The notes beneath the pieces were generated by a model. The model saw nothing but the letters and a program-made list of their open reading frames with translations. It was not told the DNA's origin and did not search any database. Positions 330-3,610 of a stretch of 6,704 nucleotides of DNA are shown one piece after another. This stretch comes from an uncultured Lachnospiraceae bacterium (GTDB taxonomy: Bacteria; Bacillota_A; Clostridia; TANB77; CAG-508), in the NCBI GenBank assembly GCA_947165105.1, contig CAMUZC010000085.1, positions 1-6,704 on the forward strand, written 5' to 3'. The translations under genes and the position numbers were made by a program. Within the stretch, counting starts at the first letter, position 1; each line of letters starts with the position of its first letter.

Positions 330-478
330 GCCAAGCTAAATTTATATCCTGCTGCTCTACCTACTGAGCTACCGTCCCGAAATATAATTACTAATATATA
401 AATATATTAGCTGGTCGGGAGGGATGGATTCGAACCACCGACACGCAGGTCCTCTGAAAATTTGAAATAAGCTTTGGC
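330..478 (-). tRNA. Candidate circularly permuted tRNA: 3' half precedes 5' half
   Basis: Read along the minus strand, a 3' tRNA half (449-412) comes before a 5' half (379-348). The 3' half has anticodon-stem strand CCTGC, a 5-nt variable loop, T arm GGTGG/CCATC around TTCGAAT, acceptor strand CCTCCCG, A73 and CCA. The 5' half has acceptor strand CGGGACGG, T8-A9, D arm GCTC/GAGC with GG in the loop, and anticodon strand GCAGG. The halves fit: GCAGG pairs with CCTGC, and the acceptor gives 7 pairs if C374 is bulged. A 32-nt linker (411-380) joins the acceptor ends and contains an 8-bp hairpin (391-410). Leader and trailer add 14 pairs: 458-463 with 338-343, 470-474 with 333-337, and 476-478 with 330-332. 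The anticodon loop is split between halves and its identity is unclear. C1:G72 with A73 is Pro-like. It could instead be a decayed remnant of a tandem duplication. Confidence 0.6.
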
Positions 479-1211: not shown

Positions 1212-1263
1212 AGTTAACTTGGCCTAACTATTATATTCACCCAAAGAACTTTATTAGATTTTA

Positions 1264-1298
1264 GAAATAAGTATAGGCTCTATGTTATTAAATTTTAA
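1264..1298 (-). repeat. Inter-tRNA spacer repeat, copy B
   Basis: This stretch directly follows the CCA of the Ala-like tRNA and is the partner of the spacer repeat at 464-498 (26 of 35 positions identical). This copy lies in an 87-nt spacer before tRNA-Asn and shows no tRNA half beside it. Confidence 0.6.
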
Positions 1299-1374
1299 TG
1301 GTGGAGCCGGTGGGAGTCAAACCCACAACAGTCAGTTTGCAAAACTGTCTCGCTATCTCAGAACATGCGGTCCC
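1299..1374 (-). tRNA. Degenerate tRNA-Ala-like gene (UGC by position)
   Basis: The 3' half is sound: perfect T stem GTGGG/CCCAC around TTTGACT, acceptor strand CGGCTCC, A73 and CCA. The anticodon loop TTTGCAA gives UGC inside ACAGT/ACTGA, with an A-A mismatch at the base. The acceptor GGGACCG/CGGCTCC keeps the alanine identity pair G3:U70 but has an A-C mismatch at 4:69. The D arm is poor: no good stem, position 8 is C, and no GG in the loop. It begins immediately after the CCA of the normal tRNA-Ala, with no spacer. It may be a pseudogene or a highly divergent functional tRNA. Confidence 0.6.
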
Positions 1375-1876: not shown

Positions 1877-2510
1877 ATTAAATATGCTTAATAATAACTA
1901 CTTATTAGACTTTCATCTTATTTCATTATTAAGGTAGTTGTTTGACTACAGTGACGATAAGTCTGAACTTAAAGGAGCTACCTCTAAGCTTCTTACCGCG
2001 GTCTAGCACTGAGAGGATTCATTACCTCTAACTTTCACCGAGCATTCAGAAAAATTACAATCATTATAAGTTCTTATTTGTACTTTTAAAGGTTGTTCTT
2101 CATAGTATTAGACAGATACGGCTACTCACATGTAAACTTCTCTTATATCCCTATTACTAGGTATTCAACTGTCAAGTCCCTTATGGATTTTCCTAGGTTT
2201 GATTAAGTTTTCCAGGCTTAATCCTAACTAGGATTCATATAACTTTTGGTTATCATCTATTGTGGAACCGAGAAGAATCATGTCTTAACTCTAATAATAA
2301 CAAATACACTAACGACTATCGTAATTCCTCTTTGAGGATTGTGTTCGGTTTGATTTCAATATATACTTCCGAATCGACTTGCCATCATAGGCTATCGTCT
2401 ATGAACGAAGATTTTTTGCAAGCTACGAATCTTTGTCAGCCGCTATCCTAGCACCGTAACAAACGGTCATTCACTAGGGTAATAGGTAATCATTATTAAG
2501 CATATTTAAT
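1877..2510 (-). ncRNA. Giant ornate structured RNA, ROOL/GOLLD-like
   Basis: A perfect 19-bp inverted repeat (2492-2510 with 1877-1895) extends to 25 bp with two G-U pairs (2486-2510/1877-1901). It closes an interval of about 634 nt with no credible ORF and higher GC than its flanks. Inside are many helices: ACCGT/ACGGT (2463-2467/2453-2457) stacked on CTAGG/CCTAG; 2428-2433/2408-2413, whose loop strand 2418-2422 can pair with 2378-2382 as a pseudoknot; CATAG/CTATG (2399-2403/2386-2390); a 7-bp hairpin 2201-2207/2217-2223; and a GUAA tetraloop on CCTA/TAGG (2150-2161). A TATAAT stands just upstream (2523-2528). Size, ornate fold and position beside phage tRNAs fit ROOL (about 600 nt) better than GOLLD (larger), both known from phages. 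Such RNAs are reported to assemble into multimers; their role is unknown. The family assignment is inference. Confidence 0.7.
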
Positions 2511-2558: not shown

Positions 2559-2710
2559 AAATAAAAATAAATATTTGTTCTAACCTTGTTAAACTAAAGC
2601 TACCTTGACACTACTTCGCTCATAACGGACCCATACATGAGCCCTGGCTTTTCCATCTTCCGAATAGTAACCTGTTGGAATCGAACCAACATCAATATTT
2701 ATTTTAATTT
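2559..2710 (-). tRNA. Second permuted tRNA-like RNA with its own promoter
   Basis: A T arm (GTTGG/CCAAC around TTCGATT, 2690-2674) and 3' acceptor strand AGGTTAC (2673-2667) come first. A 62-nt linker follows, with a GCTCAT/ATGAGC hairpin (2637-2642/2618-2623). Then come the 5' acceptor strand GTAGCTT (2603-2597), T8-A9 and D arm GTTT/GAAC with GG in its loop (2594-2577). GTAGCTT pairs with AGGTTAC at all 7 positions, two as G-U. Outside, leader 2694-2710 and trailer 2559-2575 pair at 16 of 17 positions and replace the anticodon arm with a continuous helix. No CCA is encoded and no anticodon loop is visible, so it may be a tRNA-like structure rather than a decoding tRNA. A good promoter starts exactly at the leader, and the U-rich trailer may help end transcription. 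The layout recalls permuted tmRNA, but no tmRNA signature was seen. Confidence 0.55.
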
Positions 2711-2719
2711 TACATTTAT

Positions 2720-2748
2720 ATTATACAATAAATTTTTAATTTTGTAAA
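2720..2748 (-). promoter_or_regulatory. Promoter for the permuted tRNA-like RNA
   Basis: TTTACA (2743-2748) and TATAAT (2720-2725) are separated by exactly 17 bp, a strong sigma-70-type match. The expected start near 2713 falls at the first bases of the leader helix of the RNA at 2559-2710. Confidence 0.75.
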
Positions 2749-3511: not shown

Positions 3512-3610
3512 TGGCAGGGGTAGCAGGATTCGAACCCGCGAGGTACTTATTTGGACTGTTCCCTTCACCGGTTTTGAAGACCGGCGCCATAACCACTAGG
3601 CGATACCCCT
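3512..3610 (-). tRNA. Type II tRNA with anticodon UCA (opal suppressor or Sec)
   Basis: 99 nt with encoded CCA and G73. Acceptor AGGGGTA/TACCCCT is perfect, T stem GCGGG/CCTGC, anticodon stem CCGGT/ACCGG with loop CTTCAAA, giving UCA, which reads the stop codon UGA. The D arm is GCC/GGC with GG in the loop. The variable region is about 28 nt, longer than most Ser or Leu arms, and its stem is irregular. Long arm plus G73 fits serine-type charging, as in tRNA-Sec or a serine-derived opal suppressor, and does not fit a tRNA-Trp(UCA). The 7-bp acceptor and short D stem are less like classical bacterial tRNA-Sec (8-bp acceptor, 6-bp D stem). It lies between the isomerase and DUF5662 genes, away from the main cluster. 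Confidence 0.85.

Follow-up and report, generated by a model that had tools for sequence, protein, structure and literature searches.

A candidate phage gene for a circularly permuted tRNA-like RNA without an evident anticodon, located beside a ROOL RNA

Permuted tRNA genes have been described for algae and archaea (PMC3978253) and permuted tmRNA for some bacteria (PMC3985003). According to the available parts of the former paper, the 3' half comes first in the permuted tRNA genes of red and green algae and of archaea, the acceptor strands face an intervening sequence of 1–74 bp, and leader and trailer are paired; the genes give a tRNA with an anticodon by way of bulge-helix-bulge processing, and RNase P and RNase Z have been proposed to excise the intervening sequence from the permuted precursors (PMC3978253). 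In the two-piece tmRNA and the tag-less tmRNA of jakobid mitochondria, as far as presented in the available parts of the latter paper, a permuted tRNA-like domain is combined with a long helix that replaces the anticodon arm, the jakobid mitochondrial tmRNAs possessing neither tag nor pseudoknots (PMC3985003). Among the matches listed in a literature search, no report of permuted tRNA genes in phages was recognized by title or start of the abstract (subscription papers and preprints fell mostly outside its scope).

The window analyzed here, i.e. the whole stretch of 6,704 nucleotides of contig CAMUZC010000085.1 (assembly GCA_947165105.1, uncultured Lachnospiraceae bacterium), contains ten tRNAs called by ARAGORN and an element of approximately 152 nt on the minus strand (in the following, the target); the host is presumably bacterial. 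The features of the target and its surroundings are as follows:

2720–2748, minus strand: sigma-70-type promoter TTTACA-17-TATAAT (11/12), the -10 box ending at 2720
2694–2710, minus strand: leader strand of the outer helix, assigned by complementarity
2674–2690, minus strand: T arm GTTGG-TTCGATT-CCAAC with 5/5 pairs, read from the letters
2667–2673, minus strand: acceptor 3' strand AGGTTAC, next base T, no CCA
2604–2666, minus strand: linker of 63 nt inside the acceptor loop, beginning with TATT, without CCA
2597–2603, minus strand: acceptor 5' strand GTAGCTT, pairing 7/7 with 2667–2673
2596–2595, minus strand: U8-A9
2577–2594, minus strand: D arm GTTT-AACAAGGTTA-GAAC, with GG and terminal A's as in a tRNA D loop
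2559–2575, minus strand: trailer strand of the outer helix, at the place expected for an anticodon stem
2566–2706, minus strand: 141-bp segment swapped for an unrelated 58 bp (L001 6786–6843) in the relative
1887–2502, minus strand: ROOL RNA (RF03087, 256.7 bits, Rfam), downstream neighbour and not part of the target

The permuted order asserted in the preliminary description (T arm and AGGTTAC before GTAGCTT and a D arm) was recovered with the same coordinates and counts, including acceptor pairing at 7/7 positions (five Watson-Crick and two G-U pairs) and complementarity of the outer flanks 2694–2710 and 2559–2575 at 16 of 17 positions (94%). Its further statements, that no CCA is encoded (AGGTTAC is followed by T), that a continuous helix takes the place of the anticodon arm (an A-U helix, of which 12 uninterrupted pairs adjoin the body) and that the element has a promoter of its own with 17-bp spacing before the leader (TTTACA-17-TATAAT, 11/12), also agreed with our reading. 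GAU separates the leader from the T arm and a single A the D arm from the trailer; the D stem comprises four pairs, and pair 3-70 is A-U. UA at positions 8-9, A14, GG, A21, G53-C61 and TTCGA are the usual elbow letters of the D and T loops of tRNAs, and the target has all of them.

A strict definition of the permuted tRNA (T stem 5/5 with G53-C61, TTCRA, acceptor 7/7, UA, D stem 4/4, A...GG...A; the outer helix not required) matched the window once, at the target, and had no match in a Markov simulation of 30 Mb (one strand) with the composition of the window, the same simulation yielding 53 T arms; a looser definition gave 2 matches per 3 Mb simulated. The target is real as a sequence pattern. 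Neither of its halves lies inside a tRNA called by ARAGORN or a Rfam tRNA at gathering score, and no cloverleaf of normal order with an anticodon was called by ARAGORN or exceeded the Rfam threshold at this position; in Rfam, only the T half gave any signal, a match to tRNA-Sec below threshold (14.1 versus 47 bits, E 2.7).

Kin of the target were sought by a pattern in which T arm and D arm are spaced as in the permuted order (at least 120 matches), candidates with a half inside a called tRNA being discarded by a scanner, and by a search for the motif ACAGCAA (at least 120 matches), a leader motif common to many permuted tRNA genes in phage contigs. Since the patterns by which the loci were chosen required a T arm and a D arm at such a spacing, the counts are no estimate of prevalence. 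Among the matches listed, 118 unique pattern matches that were unfiltered for pairing comprised 60 with 7/7 and 17 with 6/7 acceptor pairs, 41 having five or fewer; with swapped partners, 7/7 pairs were reached in 0.74% and 6/7 in 3.19%. A core set of 74 elements (among the matches listed; acceptor at least 6/7, T stem 5/5, D stem 4/4), the pair counts of which lean towards structure because the set was filtered for pairing, showed a leader-trailer helix of on average 7.6 Watson-Crick pairs versus 4.8 with swapped partners and, in all 74, an acceptor loop of 3–23 nt (the pattern allowed up to 28). Of the 74, 35 formed a perfect anticodon arm on joining of the halves (5 pairs, with U33 and a purine at 37), versus 8.5% with swapped partners, 19 different anticodons being represented in the joined core elements (e.g. 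Thr-TGT, Ile-GAT). In the 73 aligned elements all seven acceptor pairs show changes on both sides, which appears supportive of the pairing but, in a set filtered for acceptor pairing, does not amount to independent evidence. Altogether, 311 records contained 85 permuted elements free of called tRNAs (target included), 76 of them with ACAGCAA; the target is one of the nine without it, some of which have near variants (TTCAGCAA or GCAGCAA) and some of which are perhaps chance matches.

The family extends over loci L081–L310 (examples: L093 2106–2176, plus strand; L196 5286–5340, minus; L204 4008–4089, minus; L249 7522–7602, plus), and in the nine family loci searched, Rfam at gathering threshold found nothing but ordinary tRNAs. 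Motif-bearing T arms were distributed over 81 permuted, 29 unpermuted (some by chance) and 74 other cases; the latter, with ACAGCAA and T arm and, under the search criteria, no D arm in either order (e.g. L217, L245), are possibly split or diverged forms. In the permuted tRNA of L156 (minus strand, near 132–78) the loop can be read by eye as CTCTAAG with the amber-reading anticodon CTA, the automatic reassembly having picked a different frame. Among the matches listed for genome contigs (119 pattern matches in 117 loci), 12 had at least 6/7 acceptor pairs, two of these being near-identical, and 107 failed the acceptor test; permuted elements were present, for instance, in bins named Clostridia, Lachnospiraceae, Treponema and Gammaproteobacteria.

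ACAGCAA is also found in 24 tRNAs of normal order (acceptor 7/7), where it belongs to an inserted segment that separates D arm from T arm and has the appearance of a small intron (three tRNAs of L254; L188, L210, L240, L251, L298 and others). A hairpin of at least five Watson-Crick pairs directly precedes the motif in 20 of the 24, as compared with 11% in shuffled sequences, and the permuted genes look like the same intron object opened in its hairpin loop. Of two family members looked up among named phages, one led to Synechococcus phage B23 and the other had no match. Synechococcus phage B23 has one such element, annotated as tRNA-Undet, with the variant ACTGCAA; in the same phage (L428 1622–1668), GGTGGTTCAGCAA and AACCACCTAGTT resemble the intron helix and motif, no tRNA halves being visible there by eye. 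Introns in phage tRNAs have been reported for Lak phages and termed enigmatic, and the word 'permuted' does not occur in the available text of that paper (PMC6784885).

A covariance model in permuted order (R1) was built from 73 of the 74 core elements (L221 5048–5104 was left out), all from other phages and none from the window. The search for which the preliminary description had called thus recovered the target (2690–2577) with 32.1 bits (E 4.5e-8), the second best score in the window; the best (47.9 bits) was obtained for another permuted element at 439–354 on the minus strand, in line with the earlier designation of the target as a second, independent one, and the third (26.4 bits) for the junction of two ordinary tRNAs. 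Because tandem ordinary tRNAs elsewhere score up to 39.9 bits (L428 2017–2104), the 32.1 bits alone are not decisive; the target differs from such junctions in that both of its halves lie outside called tRNAs. The other permuted tRNA of the window (330–470, minus strand) consists of T arm and acceptor strand with CCA followed by acceptor 5' strand and D arm, with a gap of 36 nt (CCA included) between the acceptor strands; its anticodon stem GCAGG/CCTGC is split between the halves, its flanks are GCCAAAGCT/AGCTTGGC, and it is missing from the 85-element set because the scan does not tolerate the additional base that follows its acceptor strand. By eye, two similar stretches follow tRNAs at 462–500 and 1258–1302 (minus strand: TTAAAT..AGAGCC..CTTATTTC); one of them belongs to the leader of the permuted tRNA at 330–470, and the second may be the remnant of a similar element.

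The target shares with the ACAGCAA family the succession of T arm, acceptor 3' strand, loop, acceptor 5' strand and D arm as well as a closing helix of leader and trailer; its closing helix, however, is flush with the body, whereas that of the family is set apart by the motif. CAGCAA is present on neither strand of the window, so the target is without the family motif, and its linker measures 63 nt in contrast to 3–23 nt in the family (a bound partly set by the search pattern, with at most 28). When the halves were joined by the family rule (variable loop of 4–5 nt, loop taken from the 3' half), the anticodon stem attained at most 3/5 pairs among the best 14 choices. Given the missing motif, the long acceptor loop and the missing anticodon arm under family joining, the target is, to judge from its sequence, a permuted tRNA-like RNA outside the ACAGCAA family, probably derived from permuted tRNA genes like those in many phages. 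Like the algal and archaeal permuted genes it has the 3' half first, acceptor strands facing an intervening sequence (63 nt) and paired leader and trailer; unlike them, to the extent that the available parts of PMC3978253 describe their products, it has a continuous helix and no evident anticodon, and inspection of the junction revealed no bulge-helix-bulge but 12 uninterrupted pairs adjoining the body. With no evident anticodon the target probably cannot decode; this likely non-decoding nature is not proven, because a joint inside the loop, combined with a 3-nt variable loop, writes a formal anticodon arm (AATAT-TTAATAA-ATATT or AATAT-TTATTAA-ATATT; 5 pairs, U33, purine 37), loops of a kind that A-T-rich sequence gives easily.

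The sole close relative found is a 230-kb contig catalogued as viral (IMGVR_UViG_3300028591_000080), with 95.0% identity on one side of the target and 96.3% on the other. The target itself is absent from it, which leaves the check for conserved pairing suggested in the preliminary description without a homologous copy: the 58-bp allele at this site (L001 6786–6843) has complementary ends (ATTTGG/CCAAAT), a helix of its own and 43% GC, and neither visible tRNA parts nor a Rfam family at threshold (two sub-threshold matches were taken as chance). Similarity of the two alleles was not significant (112 of 500 shuffles were as good), and from these two alleles we infer that the site, flanked by a constant promoter and ROOL, acts as an exchangeable RNA cassette. 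Target patterns (a 31-mer; T arm plus start of the linker; T arm plus D arm) had no match each in viral contigs. Blastn of the target against INPHARED yielded 24 records with query coverage below 80% throughout (E 0.2–0.6, best 20 of 24); in an inspection of five records, H1 reads by eye as protein-coding, H3 and H6 as A-T-rich or coding stretches and H17 as a tRNA-like T arm in normal order (not called by ARAGORN), and H15 is an annotated tRNA-Trp. The 210-aa neighbour protein as anchor led to four viral loci, one of them (L001) close; L002–L004 gave no blastn match and no permuted element in scans, their scattered matches to the looser scan being taken as chance. This anchor had no relative in genome contigs, its tblastn against INPHARED gave 16 records, all below 60% identity, and the helicase-like neighbour as anchor led to the same relative contig only. 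A ROOL-based pattern produced 21 loci, one of which (L023) is the relative itself and was left out; the other 20 were not used because ARAGORN found no tRNA in them. The match L006 in the relative looks protein-coding by eye. The relative also encodes a full tmRNA according to ARAGORN (L012 8756–9129, minus strand; tag AKSIFNKIANFFRGFGAQRVAALA).

As the -10 box ends at 2720, transcription of the target is predicted to start near 2713, three bases ahead of the leader strand. ROOL has its own promoter-like site (-10 at 2528–2523), and target and ROOL are preceded by the same 15-mer, ATTGTATAATATAAA, surrounding the -10 box; in the relative, the extended 15-mer (up to 2 mismatches) has 33 occurrences on one strand and 8 on the other, versus 9 and 1 for the reversed-pattern control. 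In a separate promoter scan of the relative (exact TATAAT, relaxed -35, outside same-strand open frames above 300 nt), 22 of the 34 listed sites have an open reading frame of 50 or more codons no further than 50 nt away; the relative's copy of the target promoter (G001 2102–2116) is absent from those 34, having been removed by the scan filters. The target promoter, unlike these 22 sites, is followed by no such reading frame for 889 nt and would therefore fit a promoter for a non-coding RNA. Target and ROOL are adjacent, have similar promoters and share the setting of a phage tRNA array, whereas their structures are unrelated; the available part of one report places ROOL RNA often near phage tRNA islands (PMC12286853). 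Elsewhere in the window, a sub-threshold tmRNA-family match at 1299–1374 reads as a tRNA by eye, and a 96-nt tRNA found by Rfam at 3515–3610 (minus strand), the counterpart of which in the relative (L001 5884–5979) is a tRNA-SeC with anticodon TCA according to ARAGORN, is a possible opal-reading tRNA.

In the nearest-neighbour model, which contains neither tertiary terms nor proteins, the forced permuted fold of the target has -32.1 kcal/mol as compared with -34.1 kcal/mol for the best fold, a competing structure favoured by 2 kcal/mol that pairs the acceptor strands differently. Pair probabilities were at most 0.08 in the acceptor, 0.09–0.28 in the D stem, 0.97 in the T arm and above 0.9 in 10 of 12 pairs of the outer helix; folding of the whole element gave z = -2.1. 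Our preferred reading, with close to an even chance of being right, is that a phage gene encodes a tRNA-like RNA that is circularly permuted and does not decode. RNA polymerase would start at the leader, and the transcript would fold as the upper half of a tRNA, with the long A-U helix closing it off. Excision of the 63-nt linker by the host enzymes RNase P, cutting before GTAGCTT, and RNase Z, cutting after AGGTTAC-T, could then give a tRNA-like body in two pieces that the acceptor and outer helices keep together, a model that has been proposed for two-piece tmRNA and permuted tRNAs. The product may mimic tRNA for proteins that read the acceptor-elbow half; the structural or decoy function put forward in the preliminary description is likewise hypothetical.

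The element could instead be a decaying permuted tRNA gene that has lost its anticodon arm and persists as a transcribed relic without function. This would account for the missing CAGCAA on both strands of the window, for the anticodon stem of at most 3/5 pairs under the family joining rule, for the absence of the target from the closest relative and for a linker exceeding the 3–23 nt of the core elements (pattern limit 28); however, a relic should have accumulated mismatches, whereas all helices and elbow letters of the target are intact and the promoter match is strong, and we regard decay as rather unlikely. Less probable still is a tRNA-shaped clamp from which RNase P and RNase Z would release the linker as a functional small RNA. 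Such excision has been proposed for permuted pre-tRNAs (PMC3978253, available parts), and the linker stands out by its GC content (48% versus 26% in the 300-nt flanks), but taken alone it is no more structured than its shuffles (z = -0.06) and has no Rfam match at E up to 10.

The formal anticodon arms described above, with 5 pairs, U33 and purine 37, together with the 35 of 74 phage kin that give a perfect arm on joining, are the attraction of assuming a working permuted tRNA, in which the A-U outer helix would open and the anticodon loop would contain the joint between the halves. That product would require a 3-nt variable loop and a joint within a 12-bp helix, in A-T-rich sequence where such loops are easily found, and with a variable loop of 4 or 5 nt no more than 3 pairs form among the best 14 choices; CAGCAA, moreover, is absent from the window, and a decoding tRNA is accordingly judged improbable. 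A tag-less permuted tmRNA-like domain of the jakobid-mitochondria type (PMC3985003, available parts: no tag, no pseudoknots) would share the position of T arm and acceptor 3' strand before the acceptor 5' strand and the long helix in place of the anticodon arm. The target differs from two-piece tmRNA in having a D stem (4 bp) and a pair 3-70 that is A-U and not G-U, and, in the Rfam search, neither tag frame nor pseudoknots came to light in an element of only about 152 nt. A G3-U70 pair and a D loop without stem are marks of tmRNA. No tmRNA is among the Rfam matches listed at 2540–2730, and the relative already has a tmRNA (ARAGORN, L012), which makes this assignment very improbable. That two unrelated tRNA remnants met by chance in an A-T-rich spacer is hardly credible, the nearby tRNA array and the ready pairing of A-T-rich flanks notwithstanding, given no match in 30 Mb simulated, acceptor pairing of 7/7 in just 0.74% of mismatched halves and flanks that pair as well.

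Returning to the preferred reading of a permuted, non-decoding tRNA-like RNA, we tentatively place it in a wider and doubtful scheme: phages may carry a family of permuted tRNAs that are rearranged ACAGCAA-type introns with splicing other than by bulge-helix-bulge, and the target may be an anticodon-less offshoot, transcribed separately as a two-piece mimic beside ROOL. To our knowledge, a bacterial host is not expected to have an archaeal splicing endonuclease. Permuted tRNAs in phages, if true, would raise the question of what joins their halves in a bacterium without this enzyme; with the target comes a type in which no anticodon is evident, and if this type is kept, the tRNA shape must serve another role.
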